Source of the DNA: Candidatus Uhrbacteria bacterium RIFOXYC2_FULL_47_19
GTDB taxonomy: Bacteria; Patescibacteriota; Patescibacteriia; SG8-24
DNA: 44,425 nt
NCBI GenBank assembly: GCA_001791745.1
Contig: MGFG01000034.1
Location: forward strand, 1-44,425
Direction: 5' to 3'
In this document: positions 178 through 23,772 of the stretch, one piece after another
Layout of the letters: every line of letters begins with the position of its first letter
Numbering within the stretch: the stretch's first letter is position 1
The notes under the pieces: model-generated
Seen by the model: the letters and a program-made list of their open reading frames with translations, nothing else
Databases searched by the model: none
Told to the model about the DNA's origin: nothing
Made by a program: the position numbers and the translations under genes

Positions 178-945
178 TCAGCCTTTGAGTAACACTATAG
201 CCGAAACCGTCTCAACTCCAATCAAATGCAAAGTCCGAATACATTCCCGCATAGTAGCCCCAGTTGTAAAGACATCATCTACCAAAATCACCTCTCGTCT
301 CACTAGATCGATCCCATCTGTACCAGATTTAAACATTCCGGAGACATGCCCAACCCTCCGATTGTGGTCAGATATCTTAGCCTGGGGCTGCCAGGACAAT
401 CGTCGTGCTAAACCAGACGGAAGAAAATCCGTCTCTAACTCAGTCGACACAGCTCGAGCCAACTCTTCAGCCTGATTGAAACCACGCCAAGCCCTACCAA
501 CCGGATGCATAGGAATTGGTACTACAGTCGAACAACTAATCCCAACCAAGACTGCTGCTACCTGACGCCCAACTGTTGTCGCTAAAAAATCAATCAATAT
601 TTTTCCAGCCTCTTCAACCTGCTCGTACTTATACAAATGTAACAGGCCGCGCAGTATTGGATCACCATAAGAGCCGGCTGCGAATCCTCGACCCCATTGA
701 CCAGCAACGCACGATGCACGACCACACGAAACCTGATGCTTCAGTCGACATCCACAACCAAGACAAAAGAAAAAGCCCCGATTGGGGGCATATCTGGCAA
801 CCTCACAATTTGAACAAAACAGCTGACCTTCAAGACCACACGAAACGCAGAAGTGAGGAAAGATTGCGCGACCAAACCCGGCCACCAAGCGCAAGGCTGT
901 GTCCCTTATCCCCCCTCTGCCCATTCGATAGAATCCACCTTCCAT
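178..945 (-). CDS. comF: ComF family protein (competence-associated phosphoribosyltransferase)
   Basis: N-terminal Cys-rich zinc motif (CVSCG...CSNC...CLGCGC) and PRPP-binding motif VILVDDVFTTGAT. AGGAGG lies about 7 nt upstream of the ATG at 945, inside the 3' end of the preceding gene. An alternative start is at 924. Confidence 0.9.
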   Translation of the reverse strand: MEGGFYRMGRGGIRDTALRLVAGFGRAIFPHFCVSCGLEGQLFCSNCEVARYAPNRGFFFCLGCGCRLKHQVSCGRASCVAGQWGRGFAAGSYGDPILRGLLHLYKYEQVEEAGKILIDFLATTVGRQVAAVLVGISCSTVVPIPMHPVGRAWRGFNQAEELARAVSTELETDFLPSGLARRLSWQPQAKISDHNRRVGHVSGMFKSGTDGIDLVRREVILVDDVFTTGATMRECIRTLHLIGVETVSAIVLLKG

Positions 946-1526
946 AACTCGCCCTCCTGAACAAAATCTAAATTGATTTCTTGATAATAAATGCGTGTAC
1001 CGGCAGAAATAATCTCCTCACGTTGGGTATTAACTGTGACATCGGCGGTACCAGCCTCTTCATTAAAGAGAACAACATTCGCTACCAGTGCTCTAGTAGT
1101 TATTCCGGTGTACTCCGGCGACTGAATACCTTCTGCCCGAGATCGTTCCACAAACTCTGTCGTCTCCCGAGCTAGTCGATCGGTCATTAAAGACCTGAGC
1201 TCTTCCAAATTCCGATAGTCACCTTGATTGGAGTAACTCCCATACCGTTCAGCGAAAGCCGCCGCAAGACGTTTCAGATTGTTACGAATATCTGGAGCTG
1301 CGACTTCCTCTGCCGTGCGAACCGGCTCAGTTGCCTGAGTTACATCCATTCTGACCGTACCACCAGGTACATTCAGCCCACCAGCTGGAGTATTGGCCGG
1401 AATATTAGCTGTATTAACAATCGTTGGTGTCTGTTCGCCAGAAGACAACCATAGAAAAAGGAACAATAAAATCAGCACTACTGCCACCACTACCCCTCCG
1501 ATAATCTTTTTTGTACGAGATGTCAT
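906..1526 (-). CDS. Membrane-anchored hypothetical protein (one N-terminal TM helix)
   Basis: ORF with N-terminal hydrophobic segment KKIIGGVVVAVVLILLFLFLWLSS. It overlaps the comF start and lies between the VirB4 gene and comF. Confidence 0.75.
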   Translation of the reverse strand: MTSRTKKIIGGVVVAVVLILLFLFLWLSSGEQTPTIVNTANIPANTPAGGLNVPGGTVRMDVTQATEPVRTAEEVAAPDIRNNLKRLAAAFAERYGSYSNQGDYRNLEELRSLMTDRLARETTEFVERSRAEGIQSPEYTGITTRALVANVVLFNEEAGTADVTVNTQREEIISAGTRIYYQEINLDFVQEGELWKVDSIEWAEGG

Positions 1527-1568
1527 ATTCTGTCAACTAAATATCTGGTCCGTAATAATCAAGTCGAA

Positions 1569-3509
1569 TCAAATTGTCCCAGAAACACCTGCTTCAATAT
1601 CTGACTCAAACGAGCCAGTCGATTCTTCATATTCCTTTTTAGCTCGCTCGATATCCAAAAGCTGTTGAGGATTAGTGGTCACAATCTGATCCTCGGAATA
1701 GGAAGCTACGACTTTAATAGCTGCATGTTTATTACCGGCAAAGAAAATCCCCTCTCCGACTCCCCCTTCGAGCAAGAGAAACTTCTCACCCTCAGTTAAC
1801 AAAAAGGTCTTCTGAATATTATCGATCGCTGCTGGAGACTGACGTAACAATAACTGCATCGCCGAGTTAGTGACAATCGCCTGACCATAAGGGCTCCGCA
1901 AAAAGTCGTTTACGTCCTGGGTAATAGTCGTCACACCGAGATAATACTTTCGACAACGCTTAACTAGAGCGAAGATGAATCGTGCTGAATCTTCGTGTTG
2001 CATGAGCCACCAAGCCTCATCAATAACCAAGATACGTTTTTTACGTTCGGAACGAACTACATTCCAGATATAGTTGATGATGGCGTAAATAGCTAAAGGC
2101 CGCAGTTCATCCTCTAGATCACGTACTGAAAAAGTTACTAGAATATTCTTCACCTGCACGGTGGTCGGTGAATTAAACAACCCAGAGAAAGTACCGTCCG
2201 TAAACTTCCTAAGTTTGACCACTAAATCAGTTGTTCCTTCCATTCCCTCGAGCACATCCACCAAATCCTGAATAATTGGTGGCTCGGCAGTTGCGAGATC
2301 AGAATCGGGGGTAATGTCCTTCTTGGCATATGTCTCCAAAAGCGCACGATCGAGAACCGAGTCTTCTTGTGGCGTCACCTGACCGAGCATGATCCTAAGC
2401 AATCCCTTCACTGTAATAACGGCACTACGAATAATATCCTCAGTCGAAATCTCTTCACCAACCGGACGTGGCAAATCAAACGGATTAATCTTGGCATCAG
2501 ATGCCAACGAAACATTGATATAAGTTCCACCGACTGCATCGGACAAGTGTTTGTACTCCATTTCTGGGTCAATCACGATCACCTCTGTACCAAGCATCAG
2601 TGAACGCAATATCTCCAATTTGACTGCGAATGATTTACCAGCGCCAGAAGTTGCAAACACCACCAGATTGGCATTCTGCATCGAAAAGCGATCAAACAAA
2701 ATCAATGAATTGTTGTGCCGATTGATACCAAACAGGACGCCGTTTTCTGAGGTTAGATCAGCCGAAATAAACGGGAATGATGAAGCAATCGGCGAAGAGT
2801 TCATGTTGAAGGAAATCATCAATTCATCATTACCAAGTGGTAGTGTGGAATTGAAACCCTGCTCAGCTTGGTAGAAAACCCGCTTAGAGTAGATCAACTT
2901 GCCACCAAACATCGTCTCTACTTCCTCGGATTGACGATCGAGCTCATCTTTGGAGTTAGCGTAAAGAGTTACGTAAAGCGCAAATTGGAAAAAATGCTCG
3001 ATACCCTGAGATAAATTGTCGCGTAGTTCCTCAATGTCTTTAAGTGCTGTCTCGCGTATCGGGTCGCGCGGAGCACCTTTGTCCGAATCAGAAATAATTT
3101 GGGCCTCCAACATACCCACCTTTTTCTTGAGCTGCTTCAAAATGACCGCCGCTTTAACTGGATAGAAAAACATTGCAACATCAAGCGTGGTGTTCATGTT
3201 TACAATCGGAGAAAACCAGCCCAAAGAAATGTATCGAGGATAAGTGATGACAAAAATGGTACGAACGTAAGTCTCGCCGAGTCTCAAAAAACTCGGTTCA
3301 ATCTTCATGCCAGCTGGAGCTACAACATCCTTAATCGAAACCACGCCACGACGATAGATTCTTTCCTCCTCAAGAACCTCACGTTCACGCATGACCTTTT
3401 CCTGCTCCTGCGCTGCCTTAACACTCTCTTTGGTTGGTCGCTTTGGTTGTTCTGTACCGTCAGAACTAATGCGTCCAATTTGTTCTTGCTCAAAAGCCAT
3501 CTGAATCAA
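1569..3509 (-). CDS. virB4: VirB4-like type IV secretion ATPase
   Basis: Walker A ATSGAGKSFAVK, Walker B RILVIDEAWWLM, and TrbE/VirB4-like C-terminal features (RSPYGQAIVTNSAMQLLLRQ). The initiation codon is uncertain; MAFEQ a few codons downstream is plausible. Confidence 0.9.
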   Translation of the reverse strand: MIQMAFEQEQIGRISSDGTEQPKRPTKESVKAAQEQEKVMREREVLEEERIYRRGVVSIKDVVAPAGMKIEPSFLRLGETYVRTIFVITYPRYISLGWFSPIVNMNTTLDVAMFFYPVKAAVILKQLKKKVGMLEAQIISDSDKGAPRDPIRETALKDIEELRDNLSQGIEHFFQFALYVTLYANSKDELDRQSEEVETMFGGKLIYSKRVFYQAEQGFNSTLPLGNDELMISFNMNSSPIASSFPFISADLTSENGVLFGINRHNNSLILFDRFSMQNANLVVFATSGAGKSFAVKLEILRSLMLGTEVIVIDPEMEYKHLSDAVGGTYINVSLASDAKINPFDLPRPVGEEISTEDIIRSAVITVKGLLRIMLGQVTPQEDSVLDRALLETYAKKDITPDSDLATAEPPIIQDLVDVLEGMEGTTDLVVKLRKFTDGTFSGLFNSPTTVQVKNILVTFSVRDLEDELRPLAIYAIINYIWNVVRSERKKRILVIDEAWWLMQHEDSARFIFALVKRCRKYYLGVTTITQDVNDFLRSPYGQAIVTNSAMQLLLRQSPAAIDNIQKTFLLTEGEKFLLLEGGVGEGIFFAGNKHAAIKVVASYSEDQIVTTNPQQLLDIERAKKEYEESTGSFESDIEAGVSGTI

Positions 3510-3518: not shown

Positions 3519-4244
3519 CTATGGTGCCGCCTGATTTTCAGCTACCCTCATGTTTTCCATATCATCCAACTTTTCAGTGTCTATTAGTTCTGGATTGTAA
3601 GCACGATAGTAAAGCTCGATCAATTGCTGAGTATTAAGCATGACTGCCTTCAAGCCCATACTACTCAAATTGGCAACAGTCGAATTAACACGATTCATTA
3701 GATCACGCTTGCGCTGTTGGAATCTTTCCTCGGCTAATCTAACCGAAAGTGCTGGAGTCAAAACTTCAGTCATTTGAGTCCAAAAATTCTTGCGTTTGTC
3801 AGACATTGGATTATATGGAACAACGACAAAGAATTGCTTCTGCATAATCTGACCGAGGTCGATCAATTCTCCTACAAAGGCTCGATAGTCGGTGATTTGC
3901 ATTCTTAATAAATCATTTTTCTGTTCACGCTCGGATAACTTTAGACGCTCCAAATAATCCTCGATATTCAGTCGACGCGACTGAACCACGATCTGAATTG
4001 GACTCTCCAATGCATTCATGAAAGAGATGTACTGCTGAATAATGGCGTTCTGCTCATCCTCTGACTTCAGGGCAAAATTAATACTCGAAACCATGAGTAC
4101 TGCTCGCAGCGTACCATCCTTCATTACAACCACATCCTCTTTGACTTCGTTGAAGTCAAGGAACTTCTTGGTTGACGGGCCAGCCTTAGCTCCAGCCAGC
4201 TTCTTCGATTGCATGTCGTTCTCAGTCGGCATGTCAGGACTCAT
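3519..4244 (-). CDS. TraC-like / VirB4 N-terminal domain protein
   Basis: Located directly before the VirB4 ATPase ORF. Sequence FLDFNEVKEDVVVMKDGTLRAVLMVSSINFALKSEDEQNAIIQQYISFMNALE resembles the TraC/VirB4 N-terminal domain. Confidence 0.7.
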   Translation of the reverse strand: MSPDMPTENDMQSKKLAGAKAGPSTKKFLDFNEVKEDVVVMKDGTLRAVLMVSSINFALKSEDEQNAIIQQYISFMNALESPIQIVVQSRRLNIEDYLERLKLSEREQKNDLLRMQITDYRAFVGELIDLGQIMQKQFFVVVPYNPMSDKRKNFWTQMTEVLTPALSVRLAEERFQQRKRDLMNRVNSTVANLSSMGLKAVMLNTQQLIELYYRAYNPELIDTEKLDDMENMRVAENQAAP

Positions 4245-4662
4245 CAGGGTTATATACTCCCCCAGTGTTGACCACCAAGGTCAACTCGGACAGTTTAGTG
4301 GTCGAAACCCGCTCTTTAATCAACCTCTTAGGTGGCGGAGCAGGTGGAGGGGCGGTCACAATTTCCTTCAGTTCTGAATCAGTGAGCGTCTTGTCCCAAA
4401 TGCGCAAACGCGGCTTACTGAAAGTTTGTATCAGATTGAGTAAAAAATAATGAAATGGTTGGCCGTTAACTCTTAAAAAGGCCAATACCCCACCGAACAC
4501 AATCATTACCACCGCCAAAAAGACAAAAAGTGCAAAGTCCGCCAATTTAAAAACAATAAAGAGGGCTCCGGCTACCACCAACATAATCAGAAACTGTCTA
4601 GTCGTCAGTGGACCAAAGATCTTGTCTTCTACATCTATAAACTGCGGAACAGTGAACCTCAT
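4234..4662 (-). CDS. PrgI family protein (T4SS-associated membrane protein)
   Basis: N-terminus FTVPQFIDVEDKIFGPLTTRQFLIMLVVAGALFIVFKL plus two TM helices is typical of PrgI. Adjacent to the TraC/VirB4 genes. Confidence 0.8.
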   Translation of the reverse strand: MRFTVPQFIDVEDKIFGPLTTRQFLIMLVVAGALFIVFKLADFALFVFLAVVMIVFGGVLAFLRVNGQPFHYFLLNLIQTFSKPRLRIWDKTLTDSELKEIVTAPPPAPPPKRLIKERVSTTKLSELTLVVNTGGVYNPDES

Positions 4663-4790: not shown

Positions 4791-6764
4791 TTAGAATCTT
4801 AGTTCATGGTTTAGTCTCATGAGCGCATCAAACTCCGGTTTGGTTAACGCTTCTCTACCACTCTTGGCTGTCTCTACTAAAACTTCATCTACTGGTCTGC
4901 CAATTAAACTTTGTCGCAAGGTATCTAAATAAAGACGATTAACTGCTGAATTACGCCAAGCCTTAATTCCAGCGACCTTAACCTCAAATGACTCCTCTTT
5001 TAGAATGTCAATCTTGTCACGTATCTTTAAAGTTGCCTCTTGTGGGCTCTTCGACAAACGACGGAAATCCTGAAGTGTTAGTGAACCAAGTTCTTCTACC
5101 GGACCAGTCAAACGACGAGTAGACGACACAACATCCGAAACTTTCTGTCTGGACTGAAGACCTGGTAGTGGTGCCACCGAAGATCCGCTCATTCCGGATA
5201 CTGGTATAACAACAGACCGTAGTGAAGGTGCAGCTGACCCAAAACCAGCATTAGTTTTTGAACTCAAAGATTGAGTAATAACTTTGTCAGTCTTACTTCC
5301 AACAACAGCTGGTTTAGATGTCTTCTCGACAACAATAGATTGAGCAGTGTTAATCGGGGTTTCCCCATTAGCTAAGGGTAAATTGACAGGCGGTGGCACC
5401 TTTATGGCTTCTGGCGCCTTTTGACTATCACCGAACAGATCACGAAATACCTCAGCTACTGCTGCATCACCACGACGACTAGCCTCACTCGAGCCAGCTG
5501 TTTTCCGATCAGAAGCAGGCCCAGAAAGCACTCGAATCACCTTAGGGGTCCCTGTCGGACGAGTAGTAGTTGATTGTGTTGACAGTGCATTAGGTGTTGG
5601 TTCGGCCTCTGATTTAATTTCGGATTTTGACGATTCGACCGTTGTCTCCTGTTTAGTCAATTCAACGAAACGCCGATCTAATTCTGAGCGTTCAATTTTG
5701 GTTTGTCTTTCCTGTTCTTTGAGTTGTCGATCCACTTGACTAGCTACAAACTGTCGCTTTTCTCGTTCAGCTTTAGATCTCTGAGCTACTAAGAAATCAT
5801 TTCGTTTTTCGACCAGTAACTTAACTGAGTTTTTAGCCTGAGTATCAGTCATACCTAAACCACCGCTCTTGACCGACATAGAAAACTTTGACTCAGTCTC
5901 CAAACCACCACGTAAATCCTTAAAAAAGGCTTCAGCAGCTAACACAAACCGCTTCCTCATGGCGTCGTCAACAAAACTGTAGCCGCTAACCCGCTCAATA
6001 TCAGATGGAAGGCTGGCCATGATCCTGTCGACAGCATCAGCCTCAACTGAACCATCAGGTAATCCTCGCTCCACAATCGCCTTAACCTCCTTCAAATCCT
6101 CTTGATACTGAACCAATGGATCCTTCTCTTTGATTAGCGGCGGTTTTGGTTCGGATTTTGACTTGGATTGGATTGACGGCAACGGCGATTCAACAACCGA
6201 ACGAATCGGTTTTGATGCTGATGACGTTGAACCGGATTGTTTAGTGAGAACTATTGGCGAACGAGTTGATTTCGGTGTAATTGGTGGAGTTGATGACTTC
6301 GATGTTTTCAATGGCGGTGCTGGAGGTGGTGGTGATGGTGGCAATGACGGAATCGATTTAACAGCAACAGCCGGAGATGGTGAGGACTCAATCGGTGAAG
6401 TCTGTTTAGGTAGAACCGGCACAACTGTCGGCTTAGAAACTCGAACTGGTTCAGTCCTATCTGACGACGGAGTCATTGGCTTGCCGGCAGGCATGAATGG
6501 TTTGGAGACCTTCTGAATCTCAAAAGCTGTTGTTGAAGGTGTAGAGTCCGAAGATAGTGACACAACCGGAGTCGATGAAACTGACTGTGAGGTCTCATTG
6601 CTCCCTTGTGAGGGAGTAACTGGAGCATCTTCAGCAACGACTTCTTTTTTTTCATCAACGACAAGATGACCGCTCTTCATGAGCCGCCTCTGCCCGCCCA
6701 GCATGACGGGTATGTCATCGTCGAGTCCGTCGTCTAGGACGGAATTAATCAGGTCGTCGGCCAT
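4791..6764 (-). CDS. Large Pro/Ser/Thr-rich hypothetical protein in the T4SS-like cluster
   Basis: ORF 4791..6869. The preferred start is the internal ATG at 6764 (MADDLINSVLDDGLDDD), which clears the upstream gene's stop at 6817. Long disordered linker, then charged helical and globular C-terminal parts. Confidence 0.7.
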   Translation of the reverse strand: MADDLINSVLDDGLDDDIPVMLGGQRRLMKSGHLVVDEKKEVVAEDAPVTPSQGSNETSQSVSSTPVVSLSSDSTPSTTAFEIQKVSKPFMPAGKPMTPSSDRTEPVRVSKPTVVPVLPKQTSPIESSPSPAVAVKSIPSLPPSPPPPAPPLKTSKSSTPPITPKSTRSPIVLTKQSGSTSSASKPIRSVVESPLPSIQSKSKSEPKPPLIKEKDPLVQYQEDLKEVKAIVERGLPDGSVEADAVDRIMASLPSDIERVSGYSFVDDAMRKRFVLAAEAFFKDLRGGLETESKFSMSVKSGGLGMTDTQAKNSVKLLVEKRNDFLVAQRSKAEREKRQFVASQVDRQLKEQERQTKIERSELDRRFVELTKQETTVESSKSEIKSEAEPTPNALSTQSTTTRPTGTPKVIRVLSGPASDRKTAGSSEASRRGDAAVAEVFRDLFGDSQKAPEAIKVPPPVNLPLANGETPINTAQSIVVEKTSKPAVVGSKTDKVITQSLSSKTNAGFGSAAPSLRSVVIPVSGMSGSSVAPLPGLQSRQKVSDVVSSTRRLTGPVEELGSLTLQDFRRLSKSPQEATLKIRDKIDILKEESFEVKVAGIKAWRNSAVNRLYLDTLRQSLIGRPVDEVLVETAKSGREALTKPEFDALMRLNHELRF

Positions 6765-6816
6765 ATGAAGACCGGCCCCGAACTTTTGCCGGGGACGAAC
6801 CACAGATGGTCGTCGA

Positions 6817-8148
6817 TTAATCCATCGGTTCGGTCCAGACAAACTTCCCTTCGTCCAAATCAAAAGCAACTAGGCCAGAAAACTGTGCCTGTCCGGATTT
6901 TTTCAACATGTTAGTGATTCGCAATCCATAACGAGCTGCATCACCATCAGACAGTCCAGCTACTCCACGCAAAACCATCTGCAAAAAAACATTAACAGCC
7001 TGCGGACCGCTCGGTTGCATTTTAAAGACGTCAATAAATTGCCGATCGTATCCCTTCTCTTCGGAGAAAGTCCGAATAGCTTGACCGAAACGCAAATCCT
7101 TCGACAGTGTATCGAGTAATAGACCGCGTTTAGTTAGCAACATGAGTGCCGCCACCACATCCCATGGTTCTACCCGACCATCAACTAGATTGTAGATGAC
7201 ATCATGCAACCAATCCTTCAATTGCCCATCATTCTCTTTAGTAAACTGATTCAAATGTTCAGCAGATAAAGCTAGAACCTTTTGTTCTTCCGGTGTACCA
7301 GCCAATAGTTGTTTAATCTTCTCCGGCGGGTACTTCAATTCGGCAGCCAAATCCTCGGTCTTGGCAGCCGCTGCGGAGTCCGGCAACTGATCGACAAAGT
7401 TGGTCCACTTCATTTCTCTAGAAATCAAAGCAACAATGCGGTCCGCATCTTCGGTCGACAATTCCAATCCACCAGTCTTGGTTGGCTTAACTAGCATTCC
7501 GACGGTATCAGCATCACTACGCACCCCGCGCAATCGAGATTCGATGATCCCTTGCAGACGACGAAGAGACGCTTCATTGGGTCTTGGAAGGTTAATTTCA
7601 ACAGCGATCTCCTGAGCTGCCTGGTTATAAGTAATGATTCGCGACTCGATCTGATTAGTTGGGTAATCCCCCACCTGACCACCAATCTCCTCTAAGAGTT
7701 CAGCTACCTTACCCAGAAACGATCTAGCCGGCATAAAAATCCGACCGACTGTCTCACGAACTAACTCCTGAGCCTGTGGTTTATCCTTCTCCTCCCAAGG
7801 CAGGTTGGTCCAGAGCTCGTCGGGGTAATCAATCAGATCGACATCACCAAAGAAAACCTCAAGTTCGGTATAGAGGGCGATATCACGATCATCTAGCGAT
7901 AAATTGAGTCGATCAAAAATAGTGATTCTAACCTTATCCAATTCGGCCGACAGTAAGTAGCTCTGAACAGGCTCAGGCAGAGTCGAAAGCATCTCAAAGA
8001 AAGTGAATCTACCTTCTTCTGGTTCCGATACAGTGTCTGTCTCAATAGGCTGAACTGGTGCGACCGAAACATCTGAACCAACCGAAATAACCGCCGACTT
8101 CTGCCCGTTGTCTGTTCCAACCGTTAATTTGTCTGAATCATTAGCCAT
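6817..8148 (-). CDS. Hypothetical cytoplasmic protein in the T4SS-like cluster
   Basis: 443-aa ORF with balanced composition and no TM segment, collinear with its neighbours. Confidence 0.75.
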   Translation of the reverse strand: MANDSDKLTVGTDNGQKSAVISVGSDVSVAPVQPIETDTVSEPEEGRFTFFEMLSTLPEPVQSYLLSAELDKVRITIFDRLNLSLDDRDIALYTELEVFFGDVDLIDYPDELWTNLPWEEKDKPQAQELVRETVGRIFMPARSFLGKVAELLEEIGGQVGDYPTNQIESRIITYNQAAQEIAVEINLPRPNEASLRRLQGIIESRLRGVRSDADTVGMLVKPTKTGGLELSTEDADRIVALISREMKWTNFVDQLPDSAAAAKTEDLAAELKYPPEKIKQLLAGTPEEQKVLALSAEHLNQFTKENDGQLKDWLHDVIYNLVDGRVEPWDVVAALMLLTKRGLLLDTLSKDLRFGQAIRTFSEEKGYDRQFIDVFKMQPSGPQAVNVFLQMVLRGVAGLSDGDAARYGLRITNMLKKSGQAQFSGLVAFDLDEGKFVWTEPMD

Positions 8149-10971: not shown

Positions 10972-11122
10972 GTTTTTGACTTGCGGTATTGTAGACCGAA
11001 AATCGCGGACGTATCCGACAAACTTACTGCTATAAGATACCACGTTCGAACAAACGCATAAAGCGCCGAGGTATGATCTGGGGACGGAAGAGTTATTAGT
11101 GGGGAGTGTGTCGAGTTACCAA

Positions 11123-11225: not shown

Positions 11226-11260
11226 ACGTCCTATTTGGGGAGCAGAAGAATAAAAACTTT

Positions 11261-12939: not shown

Positions 12940-13420
12940 TGGATCCCGAGTCTCGGCCCGGGATGACATATTAAAGCACTGTCGTCCCGGAACTGTGAGC
13001 GAGCGTAGCGAGTCGAACAGTATCCGGGACCCAGAGGCAAAAAAGATTGGGGTTAGCTCCTGGATCCCGGATAGACCTCGCTCCGCTCGGCCTTCCGGGA
13101 TGACATATTAAAAAGGCTTGAGGTTTCAAGATGACAAATAAAAAGTAAGGATGACAAAATAAAACACTGTCGTCCCGGAACTGTGAGCGAGTATAGCGAG
13201 TCGAACAGTATCCGGGACCCAGAGGCAAGAAAGATCGGGATTGGTTTCTGGATCCCGGATAGACCTCGCTCCGCTCGGCCTTCCGGGATGACAGCTGGAA
13301 AGACTCACAATTTCCGGGATGACAAACTAGAGAGGATGTCAGATAAAAAGGCTCGCAATTTCCGGGATGACAAAATAAAAAGTAAGGATGACAAATTAAA
13401 TGAGAGTCCGAGATGACAAA
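12940..13420. repeat. Palindromic repeat array with two full ~124-bp units (12981-13104, 13169-13292) plus half-units
   Basis: Two near-identical nested palindromes of the same family as 11261-11383, with short units such as tggatcccgagtctcggcccgggatgac and decayed gatgacaaataaaaagtaa pieces. Confidence 0.85.
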
Positions 13421-13461
13421 AAATCGTCAGGTGTTTGTTTGGAAAACAGCCTGACGATTTT
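13420..13461 (-). terminator. Terminator downstream of the giant Cys-rich gene
   Basis: Perfect 12-bp stem AAAATCGTCAGG / CCTGACGATTTT just past the stop at 13479, with a T-run on the minus strand. Confidence 0.7.
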
Positions 13462-13478
13462 AGATTGATTTACTAATC

Positions 13479-16400
13479 CTAACGGCAAGTACCAGGACAA
13501 ACCTTGATCACACCTTGATAGGTAGTATATGGAGCAAAATCGTTTGGTAAAATAGGATAATTTTTTCGATTGGCGCTAGACATGATCTCGCATTCGTTTA
13601 CAGTGTCACGTTCCAACGTTTCTGACAGGTAATTTTCAGTTGCTGAATTGAAACAAAGATTACCATCTAGACGAGCCCTGTAGCGTTCTAACTCTTCTAG
13701 GACACCTACTCCGTTATTCGGACAGTTGCCGTTACAAACACCCCAGTTATCCAAAACCTGCACCCGTGGTTTAAAGAGACAACAACCAGAAGACTCTTCT
13801 CGACAAGGGTACATTCTACCTGCAGCCATCCAACTACAACTCGGTAAGGACGCTGCAATAGCCTCAGTACAGACGTAAGTTTTCCTGAAACTCATGTAGT
13901 TGGAGTCACAAGCATCGGCATTGAGACCCCAATCAGTGTTATCGCTACCGCAAATCTGTTGATTGAGTGCATTTAAGCCACGTCGGTTCTTGAAGGCTCC
14001 GTCCAATCGGAACGATTCCAAACCGTCGCCGTAGTCAATGATGTGACGACGGATCGGCATATGATTACTGTCCGCATAAGCGTAGTAAGCTAGCTCAACG
14101 TTAGTGGCGTAACCTCCTTCGTAGCAGACATCGCGCTGGTGTCCATCAACTGTCAGACCCTCAACCCCACTAAACTCCGGACAGGAACGGCCGTCGTTGG
14201 TGCAGTTTTCTGAAGTAGTATCGACCGGCACGACTCGCGGAGCTTGATGGTCAGCAATGACTTGGACGCGATAATCTGAAAACAAAAAGCCCCTACCAAA
14301 ATCCCGTCCAACTTCTGCTTGCAACTGATAGGTCGAAAGTTCTTTTACCCATTTGTATTCACCAAAAACACGCGCAAACAAGTTAACAATTCGATATTGT
14401 CCTCTTCCAATCTCCCCCATTCGTGTAGATTCATTCAATGAATCCGGAACTTTACAAGTGCCCCCGCAAGACATGGCCAATCCAGCGGCAATATCCCGAC
14501 CAAACAACGGATCTGACATCTGATAATCGAAAGTCCCTGCCTCGTCATCATGTGTCAAGAGCGTGAAGGGACTACCACCATCTTCACTTATCACAGGAAT
14601 AGGTCGAGAAAACGTATCAGTCCCGGGCGAAAACTGCGGTGCGACCGCACCCAAAGGTGAATGATCCAACCCTGCTTCTGACAAACCACGCAAGGCAGGT
14701 CCAATCCAGTAATAACTCTGCAGTCCCCCGAAAATGTTACTCCATCTGAACTCATCAACATCGACCACTACAGGTTGAACACTCTTTAAATCATACAACC
14801 GATCAGTCCAGGCAACGTTCGGTGGATAGGCATTCTGCTCATTCACCAAGTTCAAAACTGAACAATTCTCCCGTTTATAACCTGTCACTTGTTTAACCGG
14901 AACATAGTGATGAACTTTTATTTTATGATCACCTCCACCTTTTGCGCACAGAACAGTTTCGACTTGCAAAAGACCACGTTCATTATCGAAGAACCTCGCA
15001 GCTAGACAATTATCCCTTCCGAGACTATACCCACCATCTTTACAAGGAGAATCATTTCTTTCCTCCTCAGGTGTTTCTAACCAATCCAAACAATCTAATG
15101 TTCCATTTTTTGCTTGATTCTTAATATAAGTTTTTCCATCTACAACAAACGTCTCCAGATCCTCCGACCTCATGTGATTATCATTTCGATTCCAGTGAAG
15201 AGCTATACCCCAATTATCAGCTTCAGAAGCTAGTACGGTACCTCTTTCAAAGGTAAAGGCAAACCCGGCATAATCATCAATTGAGTATGTTGATTCTGAA
15301 GGAATTAGGTAAGTGTAGAAACGTGTATTGCAGTCCGCTATTCGGTCACGTCCTCCACACGACTCCCCAATAGTAGACGACTCCTCAGAAACAGCATCAA
15401 GATCCCTAGGATCAGCATCCTCGAAATGAAACCAATGTCCAAAATCTTCTTCATCTTCCATTCTATGTTCATTATCAGGTAACTCAATTGCGTAGCTTTC
15501 TCTGTGAATACTTTCTAAGTATTTCACACAAGACGACCCATCTTCACATTCGGCATTTAAAGTACATATCTCACTGGGGTTATTAGAACAAACCCCCACT
15601 GCGTTTGCATTCCCCTCCGCCTCAGCGCAGTACATTAAATTCGGCACTGGAGATTCGAAGCCGGCTTCGGGGTTGTAGCTGTAGGAATCGAAAAGTCCGG
15701 GAATCATGTCCAAAGGCAACCACAAATTGCAGCCTAGTTTGTCGTCACTGCCAAAGAGCGGTCTCGACTGACTTCGGTCCACACAAAAACCCGGCCAACC
15801 CATAGCCAAAGTATAGGAACTTACCGCCAAACATGACCCACCTTCGCTAGCTGGTCCGCACTGATCAACAGCACCCGGCACACAACTACGACCGTTGTAT
15901 GGTCCATTCACACAAACTCCCGGCGCTGGCGAACCGGTCGCAAAGTCACCAACTGCACCTCGACTCGGCGGCGTCCGATACCTGATTGATCGATCTGGTG
16001 ACTGAAACCTAACAATACTACTACCCGAACCATAGCCCACCCGAGCATAGGAACACTCACAACTATTCCCTTCGTAACAAACATTTGCCCCACGGAATTG
16101 AGCTTGCTTCTGAACCGGATTTCCGTTGGCATCGTAGCCCTGTGTAGCCCCGGAATCCTTGAGCGACTTAACCTGCTCATCTTCGATGTTCAACACATCT
16201 TGCGGATAAGGTGAGTCTGCCTCCGGATAAGCACGGCAAGACGGAGCGTTCTCCCAATCATCGGCCCGAAGCGGTCCACCGCGGTAATCGTAGACACAAC
16301 CATTCTGAATACAACTACCATGCGGCACTGGACAACCAACTCCAATACAGGCTGGGGTATAGCCGTCTGATGGACAACCGTCTGTTCCAGCGGCATTCAC

Positions 16401-19400
16401 TTGATCCTGGGTACAGCTTATAGCACAAGCACCATTACCCTCAGCAACAGCTTCAGCCAAATCGTCATAGCAATTTAAATCTTGATAACAGCTCTCTCCT
16501 ATATGATCACCCTTGCGGCAAAGATTTAGTCGGATGCCGAAACGGGCCGTATCGAACTCGGACAAAGAGCATTGGCCGACATTCCCACCACTGGCACAGT
16601 GTTCATCATGATTGCAGGACTGACCAACAAAGTCGCCGCTTACGCAAATACCAGCTAACGGAGCGCTACAACTAACCTCACTAGGATCACAATCTGCATC
16701 TCCTGAACTGCAAGCATCTCTGCACTGATCAGTACTCCGACAATTAACAATCGAACCATTAGTTCCCCTAACCTCTACATCTACACCGTTCTCCAAACAC
16801 TGACCCACGGTTATCTTGTAGGCCTTCAAGAACTGCGGCGGATAACGATCGATGATGCTATAACCTGAATACTCCAAACCACGCCAGGATGTATCGCGAC
16901 TAGCGTAATCCTCAACAGTTAGAATCTTCTTCGGTACTTCCTTAAAGTCGGTACAGACGTAATTGTCCCCTATTCGCATGTTGTTCTGACAGGTACTAAC
17001 ACCGGCGCAACGACTGGTCCAACGGCCCTTAACCGCATCGTAGACCGGCAACGAATACTGATCACATTCCAACCATTCAGCACACTCACGATCCTGCCGG
17101 ACTTTCATGATGGTATTAGTATCGTTGTTGGCCAAAGGTGTCCCAGTTACGGCCTGACAAGACTCACCTAAACCGACGTTACAGTCGCTATTCTCTAAGC
17201 AGCCGTTACCCCAAACTTCGTAGCCGCCGCAAGTTGCAGGAGGATCGCAATCGTCATTCGAAGAGCAGGCGTCAGTCGAGCCAGAACAAAAACCAGACAA
17301 CCTATAGCAACGATTAGCACAAAGTCCACTAGTTGATCCGCCAGACTGGCAATTAATCGGAGAGACTGGTCCACCACCTGCCTCGCGTTCACTGCGGAAA
17401 TAGGTTGCAGCCGAAGAATAATCGGTCTTAGACTTGCTAGTCTGATTAAGCAAAACACAACCGCGACTCAAGCTAACCTGTCCGCTGCAACTGGCTCGAT
17501 CCAATTTGTTGTTATCCAAATAATAGTAAGCACGCGACGAACCGTTAGGTAGTGGATCGTTCGGATCAACAAACTCCTCGCAACGATCATATTCCGCCGC
17601 ACAGGCACCAACCCAACCGGCATAGGCTTCGTCACGATTACGATAGATGCCAAAAGTTGCACCTTCAACTAGCAAATCGTCGTAACAGGGAAAGACACTA
17701 CCTGAGGTCGACTTGCGGAACCAGCCACTAGTCACCCGATCACCATACTGAATATTAGTCTTGAACTCACAAATCTGATTTCCTGGATGTTTCAAATAGA
17801 ACGCTCCATCTGTAGCCTTGAACGCCTGACAGCCAACCGCATCGGCCTGACAAAGTGTCTGATCGTACTTGGATGGGTTGTCCTTAAACACAGTCGCCTT
17901 CCAGCCCGAGATCACACCATCGTCAAGCGGTACATAACAAGATTTTCGACCATTTGGTACTAGACAGTCCATAGTATCTTCATCAGATCCACTAGGACAG
18001 TAACAACCGTCACCATCGGCGCAGGTAACCACCTCACCGTCCGCATCAAGCAAAGAACACTGCTGCTCGAAATCAATCGTCGGCGCGCCTAAATTGCGAC
18101 AACCAACAGCTGTGTTAGCACAAGCGTCCTTGGCCCTGACTACCAAATGCACACGTTCATCGCCTGGCAAAGTGAAACGATCTGGATAATCGACCTCATC
18201 ACCGGACACCTCAATACCATCTAACACAAACCGACATTCGGTCTCACCGGCCGGCACACGACAAACATCTTTCAGCACCTTAGGATGTAAACCTTCAATG
18301 TCGATCGGGTTGGGAGCTTCGTAACTACAAGGACAGTTAGGAGAAGTCCCACAAGTATCTGGTAACCGACAGACTGCACCATAGGTCTGTGGTCCAAAGG
18401 TATTCAGTGTATTTTGAGTGTCAGAATAAGCAGAACAACCAACCGAAACATCACGACAAAGGTTGCTGATTGACCTCAGATGAACAATCGACTGTTGGCT
18501 GGTGCGATATTCACGGCAGCCAAGCATTTCGAGTGGAGAATAGACGCCGTCATAGGTGCGATTACACGAATCCGGCGTCCTCCAGGAATCCCTGACCACA
18601 CTGATATTGTCACGAACGCGAGTAAAGATCACATTATCTAGATAAACGTCCGGTGCTCCGCCTCCGCCCAAATTCGATAACCGCAAAGCCTCTTCACTGC
18701 CAGGCACGAAGGCAAAATTAGGTAATCTGATCGGACCGATCTCATACCGTCGCCAGTCATTCGTGATCTCCACATCATTATCCCCTTCGACAACTAGCTC
18801 CGCTGTCTCAACCGGACTAATCTCGCAACTGCTCTCGCCAGAAGCGATCAGACATGAGTGTCCGAAACTATCGTTACAACGACAACCAACAACTTCGGCC
18901 GAACAAATCTCTGCCTCCCCGTCATCGTCATCATTAGAACAGCTGCCGCTCGTAACCTGAACCATAGAGGCAGTCACTGATCCATTACCTCGTGCCCAGA
19001 AGGACACCGAAAACAAATTCCCAGATGAAACCGAACCACCGACCTTACGAACAGCCGAACCACCCCGCAGTCGTAGTGAATGACCACCAACTACGATCGA
19101 TTCAGACGACTGTTCAAAGCCGATTGCACCAAATGAACTCCAACGTTCGGTAATCTCTGATTCGAAATCATCGACAAAAATGGTCTGTACATTAGTAGCT
19201 GCATTGCCACGATAAGATCGACAACCAGCGACTTCGGCCGAACAAGTCCAACTCCAGTCGGACGAAACACGATAGATACATTCACCGCGAGCATCATCGT
19301 ATTCGCCATTCCACTTTAAACAATCCAATCTAGTGCGTCCTGCCAAACGATAACGACTACAATCAGCTGCAGCAATAATAGTCGTCGAGAAACGTCGGTA

Positions 19401-22400
19401 GTGCCGATTACCGTCACTATCATAAAACTCACGGCAATCGTAATCTCCATTAGCAATATCGCGCTGAGAACAGAAGCCGGACCGCTCATCTGGGGCTGCA
19501 GGACTATCAACACAGAGATCTGGATTTCCGGGATCAAGCCGAATACAAGGTGCCTCGCCACACTCGCCATCCAAACAAATATCGGTCATTTCTTCTTCGT
19601 CCACTGCAAAACCACCATCAGCCTTGAATCCTTCTGGAGCTGAAAGATTCGTATGCTTCAATGACCAGGAACGAAGCTGATAACCAGTCAAATCAGAACC
19701 TTCCCAAGTATAGAAAGTCTCTGTATCTCGATCACCTAGGCCGGAACAAATCCGTAGGCGCGAGAAGTACTCAACCTGCTCGGTTTCTAAGTTGGTGAAC
19801 GATGTGCAACCAATATCAACAGCTGAACACTGCTGGGCTGTGGCCGGAATAAAGTTAACTGCTTCTTCTGGTCGTGCCTCAAAGTCAGTCTCTTCTTGGA
19901 AGAACATATCGTAACCAGAACACTCAGCTGGACAATAATCCTGCGCTGAAACAATGCCAGGAACTGACGGATCACCATTAGTCGGTGTAAACAACTCACA
20001 ACTAATCTCGTTCTCACGACAAACCCGAGCAAACGCATCACATTCCGGTCGATCATTTGGTTCACCAGTACATTCCAGATAAGCCGGTGCCAACTTGACG
20101 CTCGTGGTCTGCCTAGAGAAGTAACCTTCGTGGTAACGAGTCAATGGACCCTCCTCGAACTGCACAGCATCCAGATAGACGTTACCGCCGCCGGGTAATC
20201 CACTCCCTTTGTACTCAATAATAACTTGAGCCACTCTATTATCATTCACGTAGAAAGAACAAGCAGCACGAATTTCTTTAACATTTTCTGGAGCAACAAA
20301 ATTCAATTGCAGTTCTCCATCACCATCACCACCTACCACTCGACATGGATCAGTTCCACCTTCGATCGATGAATCGTACCTTTGAATGTAATGACTAAAG
20401 GTTGAAATAGCCGAAACATCTCTCCCTGGATTAATACGTTCCCCTGCCTCATTAAAAAACTTCACTACGATCTGACCACTAGCTGACCGTCCTGCCTCAG
20501 GAGAGACAAATACGCCAGAGACGGTATGTAGTTGTCTTGGACGAACAGGTAAAAAGTCATGAACTAACTTACCACCATAGATACAACTTGAATCTCCATT
20601 CTGGACAAGACAAGTAAACCCGCCGGCCGAAGTACAGGTACATCCACCTATTTCGTCACATATTCCTTCAGCAGTATTACAAACCTCAACTCCACCTAGT
20701 TCAGGGACCAACAAAACTGCATTCCTACCCAGCGGAACCAGATCATTATCGCTCAATACGAAACCAGTACTGCCGTCAGGTACCGCACCAGTCGGCATTA
20801 ACCAGCCAGTCGGACGATCAGACCGTCCATCACGATCGATATCATCCTGACTCTCAAAACCACTATTAGTCATCATGTTAAGCGACTCACCAGGCGCTAA
20901 CTTGATCAACGATGTACAACCAACATCGCGTGCATCACAACTCTCTACCTTATTATTGAAAAACCTCGCCGGCTGAACTAACCAATCATCTGATTTGTCG
21001 CCCGGCAATCCAACAACCGATGAACAACTATTCTGTCCATTGGGAATTTCACAACCAACCGGACAATTCCCTTCCCGGTCACATGGCGAATAAGAAGAAC
21101 AGGAAACCCCAGCAACTTCACAAGAATATTCTCCATCTAGGATGGTACAGCCGGCCTCACAAACAGCGCCATCTTCACCATCACAGGTCGCAGCTGTCCG
21201 ACAAGAAATGGTATTCAAATCGGTTGCATAGTTCTGACAACCGACGTTATCGGAGTTACAGACACCAAAATCTACTGTATTCATCAGATAATTAACCGGA
21301 GTTCCTCCAGCTGCCGGATTCAATGTCCGACAAGTATTGAACTGAGCTGGACACTGGTCACCATTGAAACGCCAAGCATTGCGATCACGGACACAGTAAC
21401 CCCAACCACCAACACAGTTACCAAAGTCGTCTTGTTTGAGACAGGTCCGATAGTCGACACACTCCTCGAGACGTCGCGGGATTTCTGGCGACACTAGGCT
21501 CGGACCGTAGGCCTGAGCCCGACACTGAGCTGGTGGAACCTTTAAAACCCATTCCGGATTAATCAAATTACAGAACGGATGACGACTATCACGTTCGCCA
21601 TCAGCATTGCAATCATAAAAGGAATTCACTGCGTCCTGTAGGGTAAAATTGGCGTAGGAACCACGAGCTTGTGAAGCGGCTATCTCCCAACCCATCGGCA
21701 ATACCCGAACTGAGCGTAATCGTTTGAGATTGCTCTCACAGTAGCCGGTGGCATAACAGAATGGATCCTGATCACGAGAATCTCCAGCTGATATAAGTGG
21801 CCATTCACCATGAAGGTATCCCTCATCCATTGCTTGCCGAACGGTCAATGGAGTCGCACCGGCGATCCGAACCGCGTTCGCAAACTGCGAATCCATGACA
21901 CAGTTATCTGGTAGACGTCCGGTTGGTGGACAAATCGTAAAGTTGAGTAGTGGATCCACCTCCCCTACCTCTCTTGATGGAGGTGTTAGTAACCTGGTCA
22001 AAACCTCCCGTGAAGTCTTTCGACCCGGTGGACGGAAAAGACCTTCTTCAGAAAGAATAATGTCTGGCTGAGCTGAAATAGTTTCCTCAGCCGATAACAA
22101 GCCGGAAGTGAACTTGTTCCAGAGCCGAGAGATGAAGGTCGATACGAAGGTCTTGACGGTGTTGATCACTACGGACAGGACTGCACCCTTAGCAATCTGT
22201 CCGGCACTGGTCGCCTCCTGACCCTTGCGAGGCGCTTCCTCCTTCTCGTTTTCCATCCGCTCAAAACCACTCTTCACTACCGAACTTGGCGAGAGAATGC
22301 GGCCGGAAACCGGATCGGCAACATCAGAAAAACCACCACCGGCCGCAGCTTGTGTAATACGTTTAAGTGTTGACTCAACCAGAGCATCAGACTCCATCTC

Positions 22401-23087
22401 TTGAGTATGACCAAAAACACCAAGAGCCACTGACAAACCAGATTGTCCTGGTGAGAACTGTGGCATGAACGCTTCTAGTGCCTCATCCGAGGTAAACTGA
22501 TCTGACAACGAGCTCCAGTTGTCACGAATCGACTGGAAGGAACAACGTGGCTCAGCCGGAGCTGCACCAGCTCCATCCAACAAGCCAACTTGAATACGCA
22601 TCGACGATAGCGGATTAGATGGTGCGCACAAGTTAAAACCAATCTCACTGAAGCCACCAACTTCAGACAAAGTACCGACCGCCTCACCTACTGCGCCTTG
22701 CCAAGCGTCCTTTAAACCATCTTTCAAATTACTACTATCCCAACAAACGCTCTGACCTGGACAATCTGAGGTCAAAGAGACAGCCAGTTCATAAGCCATC
22801 TTAGATAGGAAGTAATTAGCACCATTAACGAGCGCACTAACTGCACCTTCAACCAGATTATCCTTGATAGTATTGAAAACATTAACAACTGTAGTCTGAG
22901 TCTCAGTAACAATATCCTCTGTAGGGAAGGCGTAAGCTGGTTTGGGGTGTGCAAACAAAAGGGACAGAGACAAACCAGCACCTAAAACGAAAAGCAGGAA
23001 GGTTGCCGCAATCTTCCTAAAAATCTTTTTTGTGCAATCCTCCCTCATCTTATTGATAGGCGTTTCATTATTCTGTTGGCTCCGCAT
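13479..23087 (-). CDS. Giant secreted Cys-rich protein (3202 aa) with repeated Cys modules and carbohydrate-binding-like jelly-roll segments
   Basis: Continuous ORF. N-terminal signal peptide (KKIFRKIAATFLLFVLGAGLSLSLLFAHPKPAYAF). Recurrent C-x4-VGC-x-x-[FYL] motifs and CLVxNGxxSC-type inserts; segments ending VYLDxVxF resemble CBM-like beta-sandwiches. Alternative start at 23048. Confidence 0.85.
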   Translation of the reverse strand: MRSQQNNETPINKMREDCTKKIFRKIAATFLLFVLGAGLSLSLLFAHPKPAYAFPTEDIVTETQTTVVNVFNTIKDNLVEGAVSALVNGANYFLSKMAYELAVSLTSDCPGQSVCWDSSNLKDGLKDAWQGAVGEAVGTLSEVGGFSEIGFNLCAPSNPLSSMRIQVGLLDGAGAAPAEPRCSFQSIRDNWSSLSDQFTSDEALEAFMPQFSPGQSGLSVALGVFGHTQEMESDALVESTLKRITQAAAGGGFSDVADPVSGRILSPSSVVKSGFERMENEKEEAPRKGQEATSAGQIAKGAVLSVVINTVKTFVSTFISRLWNKFTSGLLSAEETISAQPDIILSEEGLFRPPGRKTSREVLTRLLTPPSREVGEVDPLLNFTICPPTGRLPDNCVMDSQFANAVRIAGATPLTVRQAMDEGYLHGEWPLISAGDSRDQDPFCYATGYCESNLKRLRSVRVLPMGWEIAASQARGSYANFTLQDAVNSFYDCNADGERDSRHPFCNLINPEWVLKVPPAQCRAQAYGPSLVSPEIPRRLEECVDYRTCLKQDDFGNCVGGWGYCVRDRNAWRFNGDQCPAQFNTCRTLNPAAGGTPVNYLMNTVDFGVCNSDNVGCQNYATDLNTISCRTAATCDGEDGAVCEAGCTILDGEYSCEVAGVSCSSYSPCDREGNCPVGCEIPNGQNSCSSVVGLPGDKSDDWLVQPARFFNNKVESCDARDVGCTSLIKLAPGESLNMMTNSGFESQDDIDRDGRSDRPTGWLMPTGAVPDGSTGFVLSDNDLVPLGRNAVLLVPELGGVEVCNTAEGICDEIGGCTCTSAGGFTCLVQNGDSSCIYGGKLVHDFLPVRPRQLHTVSGVFVSPEAGRSASGQIVVKFFNEAGERINPGRDVSAISTFSHYIQRYDSSIEGGTDPCRVVGGDGDGELQLNFVAPENVKEIRAACSFYVNDNRVAQVIIEYKGSGLPGGGNVYLDAVQFEEGPLTRYHEGYFSRQTTSVKLAPAYLECTGEPNDRPECDAFARVCRENEISCELFTPTNGDPSVPGIVSAQDYCPAECSGYDMFFQEETDFEARPEEAVNFIPATAQQCSAVDIGCTSFTNLETEQVEYFSRLRICSGLGDRDTETFYTWEGSDLTGYQLRSWSLKHTNLSAPEGFKADGGFAVDEEEMTDICLDGECGEAPCIRLDPGNPDLCVDSPAAPDERSGFCSQRDIANGDYDCREFYDSDGNRHYRRFSTTIIAAADCSRYRLAGRTRLDCLKWNGEYDDARGECIYRVSSDWSWTCSAEVAGCRSYRGNAATNVQTIFVDDFESEITERWSSFGAIGFEQSSESIVVGGHSLRLRGGSAVRKVGGSVSSGNLFSVSFWARGNGSVTASMVQVTSGSCSNDDDDGEAEICSAEVVGCRCNDSFGHSCLIASGESSCEISPVETAELVVEGDNDVEITNDWRRYEIGPIRLPNFAFVPGSEEALRLSNLGGGGAPDVYLDNVIFTRVRDNISVVRDSWRTPDSCNRTYDGVYSPLEMLGCREYRTSQQSIVHLRSISNLCRDVSVGCSAYSDTQNTLNTFGPQTYGAVCRLPDTCGTSPNCPCSYEAPNPIDIEGLHPKVLKDVCRVPAGETECRFVLDGIEVSGDEVDYPDRFTLPGDERVHLVVRAKDACANTAVGCRNLGAPTIDFEQQCSLLDADGEVVTCADGDGCYCPSGSDEDTMDCLVPNGRKSCYVPLDDGVISGWKATVFKDNPSKYDQTLCQADAVGCQAFKATDGAFYLKHPGNQICEFKTNIQYGDRVTSGWFRKSTSGSVFPCYDDLLVEGATFGIYRNRDEAYAGWVGACAAEYDRCEEFVDPNDPLPNGSSRAYYYLDNNKLDRASCSGQVSLSRGCVLLNQTSKSKTDYSSAATYFRSEREAGGGPVSPINCQSGGSTSGLCANRCYRLSGFCSGSTDACSSNDDCDPPATCGGYEVWGNGCLENSDCNVGLGESCQAVTGTPLANNDTNTIMKVRQDRECAEWLECDQYSLPVYDAVKGRWTSRCAGVSTCQNNMRIGDNYVCTDFKEVPKKILTVEDYASRDTSWRGLEYSGYSIIDRYPPQFLKAYKITVGQCLENGVDVEVRGTNGSIVNCRSTDQCRDACSSGDADCDPSEVSCSAPLAGICVSGDFVGQSCNHDEHCASGGNVGQCSLSEFDTARFGIRLNLCRKGDHIGESCYQDLNCYDDLAEAVAEGNGACAISCTQDQVNAAGTDGCPSDGYTPACIGVGCPVPHGSCIQNGCVYDYRGGPLRADDWENAPSCRAYPEADSPYPQDVLNIEDEQVKSLKDSGATQGYDANGNPVQKQAQFRGANVCYEGNSCECSYARVGYGSGSSIVRFQSPDRSIRYRTPPSRGAVGDFATGSPAPGVCVNGPYNGRSCVPGAVDQCGPASEGGSCLAVSSYTLAMGWPGFCVDRSQSRPLFGSDDKLGCNLWLPLDMIPGLFDSYSYNPEAGFESPVPNLMYCAEAEGNANAVGVCSNNPSEICTLNAECEDGSSCVKYLESIHRESYAIELPDNEHRMEDEEDFGHWFHFEDADPRDLDAVSEESSTIGESCGGRDRIADCNTRFYTYLIPSESTYSIDDYAGFAFTFERGTVLASEADNWGIALHWNRNDNHMRSEDLETFVVDGKTYIKNQAKNGTLDCLDWLETPEEERNDSPCKDGGYSLGRDNCLAARFFDNERGLLQVETVLCAKGGGDHKIKVHHYVPVKQVTGYKRENCSVLNLVNEQNAYPPNVAWTDRLYDLKSVQPVVVDVDEFRWSNIFGGLQSYYWIGPALRGLSEAGLDHSPLGAVAPQFSPGTDTFSRPIPVISEDGGSPFTLLTHDDEAGTFDYQMSDPLFGRDIAAGLAMSCGGTCKVPDSLNESTRMGEIGRGQYRIVNLFARVFGEYKWVKELSTYQLQAEVGRDFGRGFLFSDYRVQVIADHQAPRVVPVDTTSENCTNDGRSCPEFSGVEGLTVDGHQRDVCYEGGYATNVELAYYAYADSNHMPIRRHIIDYGDGLESFRLDGAFKNRRGLNALNQQICGSDNTDWGLNADACDSNYMSFRKTYVCTEAIAASLPSCSWMAAGRMYPCREESSGCCLFKPRVQVLDNWGVCNGNCPNNGVGVLEELERYRARLDGNLCFNSATENYLSETLERDTVNECEIMSSANRKNYPILPNDFAPYTTYQGVIKVCPGTCR

Positions 23088-23772
23088 CTACTTCGGTCGT
23101 GTCAGGAGCGGGCATCTCCCCCATTGTGTCCGCTAGTAACTGTCTCAAAGTAGCGTCATCGGCTTGATCGAGCATTGTCTGTGGCACTCCAATTTCTAAC
23201 ATGAACGTTCTCAATTCCTCTGGAGTCAAGAGTTGAAGACGCTCGTTCATCTTCTCGGGTGTTAGCGAATTCAAATCGCCGAACACTCGTTCCATGGCCT
23301 GCAATATAGTAGCTTCGTCAGGCGAAACTTCCGGAGGTAGAGAGTTGACATCACCTGTTTGGGGTACCTCACCAACCGGCACAGCCGATGATACCTGGCG
23401 ACAATTCTTATCAAGCGGACAGTTTGGATCGCTTGACTGTGCAACTTCGACACCATCACTAAGACCATCAGAATCGGAGTCAGTCAAAAATGGACTTGTG
23501 CGAAACAGATACAACTCGTCGTAATCATTAAGTCCATCCTGATCAGTGTCAGCTGCTTTGAGTGCAGTAACACGTTCTTCCTCGATTTGCTCTGGTGTTT
23601 TAAGGTTCAAATCTCCATTCCGTGCCAATGGATCGAAGATTGACTTTCTCATTTGAAAAACGCCGAAAACCAGCGTAGTCAAACCGATAACAACTATAAC
23701 GCCCAGTCCTAACTTCTGATGTGGTGTGAGCGTTTTATTCTCGATCATGTCCGGAAAAATTATATCACGCAA
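23068..23772 (-). CDS. Single-TM membrane protein with TSP3-like Ca-binding motifs
   Basis: TM segment LGLGVIVVIGLTTLVFGVFQM and DTDQDGLNDYDELYLFRTSPFLTDSDSDGLSDGVEV. A likely start is at MIENKTL, 8 codons in. Overlaps the giant ORF by about 20 nt. Confidence 0.8.
   Translation of the reverse strand: MRDIIFPDMIENKTLTPHQKLGLGVIVVIGLTTLVFGVFQMRKSIFDPLARNGDLNLKTPEQIEEERVTALKAADTDQDGLNDYDELYLFRTSPFLTDSDSDGLSDGVEVAQSSDPNCPLDKNCRQVSSAVPVGEVPQTGDVNSLPPEVSPDEATILQAMERVFGDLNSLTPEKMNERLQLLTPEELRTFMLEIGVPQTMLDQADDATLRQLLADTMGEMPAPDTTEVDAEPTE

Follow-up and report, generated by a model that had tools for sequence, protein, structure and literature searches.

A giant cysteine-rich secreted protein linked to the type IV secretion locus of ABY1 Patescibacteria: a candidate host-contact component

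The type IV secretion system (T4SS) locus described here includes a gene for a secreted, disulfide-rich protein of 3202 residues (hereafter the giant) that is a signature of class ABY1. We propose that the giant works with the T4SS as a fibre for attachment to the host, or as an adhesin that stabilises the contact, and we put the probability of this reading at about one half. The locus lies in a window of 44,425 nucleotides (the whole stretch of DNA that was analysed), which is contig 34 of a 1.04 Mb genome in 34 contigs; the contigs were searched one family after another. Named relatives of the giant come from Uhrbacteria, Magasanikbacteria and Falkowbacteria, all of which we take to belong to class ABY1 in GTDB, and further relatives come from unnamed Patescibacteria. 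Going by the named relatives, the genome of the window belongs to Patescibacteria (CPR), class ABY1.

The giant is about as widespread in the class as VirB4. A profile of its Cys-rich core matched 86 of the 95 sampled class genomes, compared with 88 of 95 for VirB4. In a phylum-wide sample of 241 Patescibacteria genomes all 19 matches fell within the class, leaving 0 of 222 outside it. The nine class genomes in which the giant was not found prove little about loss, because the contigs end at or before its slot in most of those examined. One class genome (G033:C2:645067-695479) has virB4 and the giant twice, as apparently identical copies in inverted orientation; this may reflect a large inverted duplication or an error of assembly.

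The preliminary description of this DNA had listed a same-strand series of genes from a TSP3 membrane protein to ComF. Each of these genes was found on the minus strand in the order given there (Table 1), although the gene for a 294-aa secreted TSP3 protein had been left out. It had also placed the start of comF inside the preceding gene, and this was confirmed: comF begins 40 bp inside the one-TM gene, with a GGAGG ribosome site at 943-957. As that description had it, no relaxase, VirD4 or VirB11 gene was recognised in the window.

Table 1. Genes of the T4SS locus and its surroundings in the window, with the basis of each assignment.
Feature	Position	Strand	Basis
comF-like phosphoribosyltransferase, 255 aa	178..945	-	PF00156, TIGR00201, class adjacency
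One-TM protein, VirB8-like candidate	906..1526	-	TM 3-33, position directly after virB4
VirB4 ATPase, Gram-positive/MPF_FATA CD1110 type	1569..3509	-	NF045971, PF19044
TrsD (VirB4 N-terminal-domain-like; "TraC-like"), 241 aa	3519..4244	-	NF041427, TraC_F_IV
PrgI/VirB3-like membrane protein	4234..4662	-	PF12666
658-aa cytoplasmic protein (692 aa from upstream TTG at 6869)	4791..6767	-	Class-locus homologs
443-aa cytoplasmic protein (p443)	6817..8148	-	Homologs adjoining VirB6 in roughly half the class loci
VirB6-like polytopic membrane protein, 961 aa	8158..11043	-	Hydropathy, profile homologs at same place
294-aa secreted TSP3-repeat protein	11705..12589	-	PF02412 E 9e-22
Giant secreted disulfide-rich protein, 3202 aa, 167 Cys	13479..23087	-	Signal peptide, Cys repeats, jelly roll
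One-TM protein with bacterial TSP3 repeat	23068..23772	-	PF18884

Several genes of the secretion system are recognisable from family profiles. VirB4 scores 337 bits against a cut-off of 325 for NCBIfam NF045971, the CD1110 family, and also matches PF19044. Its best plasmid relatives include those of Streptomyces, Embleya and Pontibacillus, and relatives at 55-77% identity are almost always single-copy in the class genomes that carry them. PrgI reaches 40.2 bits with PF12666 (cut-off 27). TrsD, which lies upstream of virB4 in every class locus mapped, matches NF041427 at E 1e-7, under the family cut-off, and TraC_F_IV at E 8e-4. The 961-aa VirB6-like protein has no Pfam or NCBIfam match; hydropathy gives it at least seven hydrophobic segments followed by a long hydrophilic C-terminus, and class and sister-class loci have its profile homologs at this position. 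Neither the 658-aa nor the 443-aa protein has a Pfam or NCBIfam family match. The former (658/692 aa) has homologs in class T4SS loci; the latter is found in only part of the class, beside VirB6. In two class genomes (G009 and G078; L179 and L180) and one genome of another class (G151; L181), virB4 is interrupted in frame inside Walker A (GAGK/S or GGGK/S ... VHN/S). The resulting open frames are of 989-1299 aa and the interruptions have intein-like ends; they are probably inteins in the VirB4 P-loop.

The one-TM protein encoded directly after virB4, a position conserved in the class, has a C-terminal domain that is likewise conserved there. It has a weak match to NF051431 (Rv0361_Cterm), and none of 18 members matched a VirB8 Pfam family. 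The best hit of a profile search of the PDB was DotF (E 0.03), confined to the N-terminal part. By topology and position the protein may be regarded as a VirB8-like candidate. In several class and sister-class relatives it is of lipoprotein type rather than TM-anchored, so the anchor swaps while the outer domain is kept.

The preliminary description had read the locus as a T4SS-like machine without conjugation genes, and the wider genome supports this. A relaxase of PF03432, the relaxase family searched for, is absent from the genome, and on this basis no complete conjugation module was found elsewhere in it, although two VirD4-like ATPases are encoded away from the locus (C20:1715-4276 and C20:77649-79763). 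VirB9/VirB10-like outer-membrane parts were not recognised here. ComEC, two PilB and one PilT are encoded elsewhere in the genome, as are eight tandem VirB2-like pilin genes (C27:22703-26650; L161:7545-11681), unlinked to the virB4 locus. The evidence supports the locus as the ABY1-class form of the known, non-conjugative Patescibacteria T4SS.

That system was surveyed in 2025 across 3,035 genomes; it comprises a Gram-positive-type VirB4, TrsD, PrgI, VirB6, VirB2-like pilin arrays and unlinked VirD4-like proteins, with almost no relaxases (PMC12102498). The present locus shares these core genes (for VirB6, by a VirB6-like candidate), the CD1110/Gram-positive VirB4, the lack of a nearby relaxase, the pilin arrays, the unlinked VirD4-like ATPases and, as in ABY1, a comF-like gene. 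Since the survey reports the ABY1 T4SS together with comF, recG and radA, neither the lack of conjugation genes in this T4SS nor its link to comF is new. The difference is that here the giant and the TSP3 protein emerge as a class-wide part of the neighbourhood; a term search of the main text of the survey gave no mention of a giant Cys-rich or TSP3 protein. A keyword search of the open Patescibacteria literature also returned no description of the giant. As far as this search extends, the protein has not been described before.

The order of the neighbourhood is clearly conserved among relatives, with the giant linked to the genes from virB6 to virB4. In 20 mapped class loci the recurring order is the TSP3 gene, the giant, a variable insert, virB6, p443 (where present), p692, prgI, trsD, virB4, the one-TM gene and comF. 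Of the 38 cases in which the giant and virB4 share a contig, 37 have the two within 40 kb of each other, always with the giant upstream and in the same orientation. In 7 of 16 loci only 5-315 bp separate the end of the giant from virB6, and in 38 of 40 loci the TSP3 gene directly precedes the giant. However, the order of ksgA, sua5, galE, prfB and groEL further upstream is conserved too. Gene order alone is therefore weak evidence, and the synteny may partly be inertia.

Genomes in which the giant has moved are more informative on this point. In five genomes it lies away from virB4; the TSP3 gene moved along in all five, ksgA in two and virB6 in one. The last case is G040, where virB6 is the next gene after the relocated giant while virB4 lies on a different contig. 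In G021, G060, G089 and G054, the TSP3-giant pair is found away from intact virB genes. These proportions point to a firm two-gene module of TSP3 protein and giant, with a tie to the T4SS that is real but looser. The joint move in G040 speaks for a T4SS-associated fibre; that none of the other four relocated giants took virB6 along speaks against it. In the window itself, a 2.4-kb insert holding the gene for the 294-aa secreted TSP3 protein separates the giant from virB6, so that the two are not adjacent here as they are in several relatives. This gene has its own GGAGG site and a downstream hairpin (11670-11649), and it is absent from the other loci mapped. On these features it is likely an independent gene, a genome-specific insert outside the conserved set, and its position between the giant and virB6 also weighs against a fibre that works with the T4SS. 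The gap between the giant and virB6 (11043-13479 in the window) is a variable-gene site in the class, holding from 0 to 10 kb of unrelated genes.

The slot between the TSP3 protein and virB6 is also occupied in other classes, where it codes for secreted proteins smaller than the giant (280-1,959 aa). Two of these, one of 280 aa and one of 361 aa, show homology to the N-domain of the giant (hmmsearch E ~1e-6 to 1e-8, hhalign probability 89-95%). For the 644-, 749- and 1959-aa slot proteins of sister classes, the comparison with the N-domain was not significant. The giant thus appears to have grown out of an ancestral component: most simply, these sequences reflect a small secreted protein that was encoded ahead of virB6 in the ancestor and later extended in ABY1.

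The giant has a signal peptide and, by hydropathy and sequence, lacks a C-terminal anchor. It consists of a helical N-domain (~44-370), a Cys-rich core (~374-533), Cys-x6-Cys repeats, a jelly roll (~723-1018) and more Cys-rich blocks; its homologs are ~2,000-4,000 aa long. An alignment of 54 long giants contains 209 positions that are at least 90% identical, 76 of them cysteines. The C-x5-GC motif occurs nine times in the giant of the window, whereas 2000 shuffles averaged 0.87 occurrences and never exceeded 6. Some giants (L093, L108, L109, L111, L113, L121 and L129) have ~550 extra residues near the C-terminus, their aligned C-terminal segments measuring 1043-1177 aa compared with ~430-670 aa in the other giants. 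The neighbouring TSP3 one-TM protein scores 32.2 bits with PF18884 (cut-off 25).

An AlphaFold model of 1,127 residues of the giant, for which 52 sequences were used, varies in quality (mean pLDDT 61) and has two confident regions: the compact core (~374-533), with pLDDT 83-97 in most blocks, and the jelly roll (~723-1018), with pLDDT mostly 70-93. For the core, nothing recognisable appeared in the 50 top-ranking Foldseek matches. The modelled jelly roll matches CBM4-2/CBM16 (E 5e-5 to 6e-4, probability 1.00), and Pfam CBM_4_9 (PF02018) is detected in the sequences of 7 of 15 giants, with a best E of 3e-11. We therefore predict that the giant carries a carbohydrate-binding-type jelly roll of the CBM4/16 fold, which, judging from this fold, may bind sugars. 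Unlike in CBM families 4/16, the module is embedded in a Cys-rich protein with no recognised enzyme domain. The window's own giant has no Pfam CBM_4_9 match; that the CBM matches come from relatives and a predicted fold is a further point against the attachment reading.

Other assignments for parts of the giant were considered and rejected. The C-terminal 700 residues have no significant match. A PKD fold at the C-terminus, suggested by eye from "DYGDG...DNWG", was supported neither by Pfam, with no PKD match in any of 15 giants, nor by Foldseek, with no match below E 0.01. A VirB5/TrbJ identity of the N-domain, suggested by its position before virB6 only, found no Pfam or PDB sequence match, and no such protein was in the 50 top-ranking Foldseek matches, where the N-domain was modelled with low confidence. 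Matches of the N-domain to flavohemoprotein (E 0.001) and a MobA-like NTP transferase look like chance.

The preliminary description had suggested that the giant is an extracellular component of an uptake or attachment machine, and a role in attachment is the best reading of the evidence. We propose that the giant would be exported by Sec and oxidised, as supported by its signal peptide, its conserved cysteines and two DsbA-family proteins encoded in the genome. It could then be held at the cell surface through its N-domain, with the TSP3 one-TM protein, whose upstream gene overlaps that of the giant, as membrane partner. There is no C-terminal anchor and surface retention is assumed, and this too speaks against the proposal. 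The Cys-x6-Cys repeats and jelly-roll modules would reach out and, going by the fold, bind host-cell glycans or other ligands, after which the VirB6/PrgI/TrsD/VirB4 translocon may move material across the contact. A T4SS-linked fibre is favoured by a presence close to that of VirB4, the absence outside the class, the linkage to virB4 and virB6, the pairing with the TSP3 protein, the conserved cysteines, the CBM4/16 fold and the homology of the N-domain.

The main rival, which we consider rather unlikely, is that the TSP3-giant pair forms a general ABY1 surface module, S-layer-like or a coat, which has no working link to the T4SS and lies nearby through the slow change of an old gene order in the ksgA region. 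The conserved order of the upstream housekeeping genes would be expected on this account, the four genomes with the pair away from intact virB genes agree with it, and the class-wide single-copy presence fits a structural surface protein. However, sister classes have a homologous N-domain and a TSP3 protein in the same pre-virB6 slot, without the giant part; virB6 moved with the giant in G040, and the open reading frames are closely spaced in 7 of 16 loci. It is quite improbable, in our estimate, that the T4SS secretes proteins or effectors and that the giant is a host-binding platform, conferring specificity but not needed for translocation, with the two functions loosely coupled. The missing PF03432 relaxase and the VirD4-like ATPases elsewhere in the genome are compatible with this, and for Saccharibacteria a role in delivering effectors has been proposed (PMC11665869), but no effector was recognised and the genes for the coupling proteins lie away from the locus.

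DNA uptake, one of the functions first suggested for the locus, fared less well. Here, the VirB6/VirB4 translocon would import DNA bound by the giant, with the ComF of the operon assisting transformation. The ComF-like protein passes the PF00156 cut-off (28.2 bits; cut-off 26.3), and its TIGR00201 score of 59.8 bits (E 3e-16) is far under the cut-off of 233.6. The adjacency of comF held: of 21 class loci, 13 have it abutting the one-TM gene, where it overlaps the VirB4 operon or comes after it. The survey cited above had already published the comF-T4SS link in ABY1, together with recG and radA (PMC12102498), and Helicobacter ComB, discussed in PMC11665869, provides a precedent. Conversely, comF is missing from the locus in 8 of the 21 and was not at that place in any out-of-class locus examined; ComEC and the type IV pilus ATPases are encoded elsewhere; and the CBM-like modules point to glycans instead of DNA as the ligand. 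In S. epibionticum (Southlakia), comEC is dispensable and the T4SS is essential, according to what PMC12857230 relates of Wang 2023 (see also PMC11665869). The separate ComEC and pilus ATPases, the partial adjacency and the Southlakia result make DNA uptake less likely, so that the claim keeps weak support and we judge it improbable.

Long Cys-rich proteins also occur elsewhere in this genome. VirB2-like (PF18895) pilin domains are fused to long, often Cys-rich ectodomains at L162:3-8084 (-) on C10, and also at L162:8116-10371 (-), L164:3751-5301, L164:5429-6988 and L165:3740-5695. The largest (L162:3-8084) has an open frame of 3354 aa and carries Big_5 and TIG domains. In a 30-genome class sample, about half of the genomes have open frames of ~1,900-3,350 aa that include a pilin domain. 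The pilin-fused second giant on C10 is not a recognisable paralogue of the first, as blastp gave no significant match. Two DsbA-family thioredoxins are encoded directly before Cys-rich pilin-fusion genes (L164:3042-3710 and L165:2979-3743), and C19 has a VKOR match under the cut-off. In the window, a gene at 27962-29572 (-) encodes a 536-aa Cys-repeat protein with a lipoprotein-like start and CGD-C-E-C-C-DCG-C repeats, at a local G+C peak of 0.60; it was perhaps recently acquired or repeat-expanded.

A broader proposal, which we put forward tentatively and with more doubt than confidence, is that ABY1 has a new T4SS subunit. In it, a small ancestral protein encoded before virB6 would have become a disulfide-cross-linked, carbohydrate-binding fibre of 2,000-4,000 residues, docked on the T4SS and deciding which host cell is attacked. 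It would be complemented by a second, widely shared giant, the fusion of a VirB2-like pilin with a Cys-rich ectodomain of up to ~3,200 residues.

Large secreted contact proteins encoded with T4SS genes are found in other systems, namely the mating-pair stabilisation proteins PrgB of pCF10 and TraN of F, the latter being Cys-rich like the giant. No sequence or structural match of the giant to them was found, and it differs in size and in its jelly-roll modules. The survey found no PrgB homolog in Patescibacteria and no adhesin for this T4SS (PMC12102498). Giant surface proteins have been proposed for host recognition and holding in another member of the CPR, Vampirococcus lugosii (PMC8080830); the likeness is by description, and the portion of that work used here reports no link to a T4SS. 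Helicobacter ComB is likewise a VirB4/VirB6-type machine without conjugation genes, but the present locus has no recognised VirB9/VirB10-like outer-membrane parts, and the competence genes are elsewhere.

The role of the T4SS in Patescibacteria has been described as completely unknown (PMC11665869), and in Southlakia, the only Patescibacterium tested, the system is essential for epibiotic growth, as PMC12857230 reports of Wang 2023. The giant is a concrete candidate for the host-contact part of this T4SS. Imaging it, producing fragments of it and assaying them for host-glycan binding would require no genetics in the uncultured organism. It marks ABY1 genomes, and it suggests that host range could be read from sequence.
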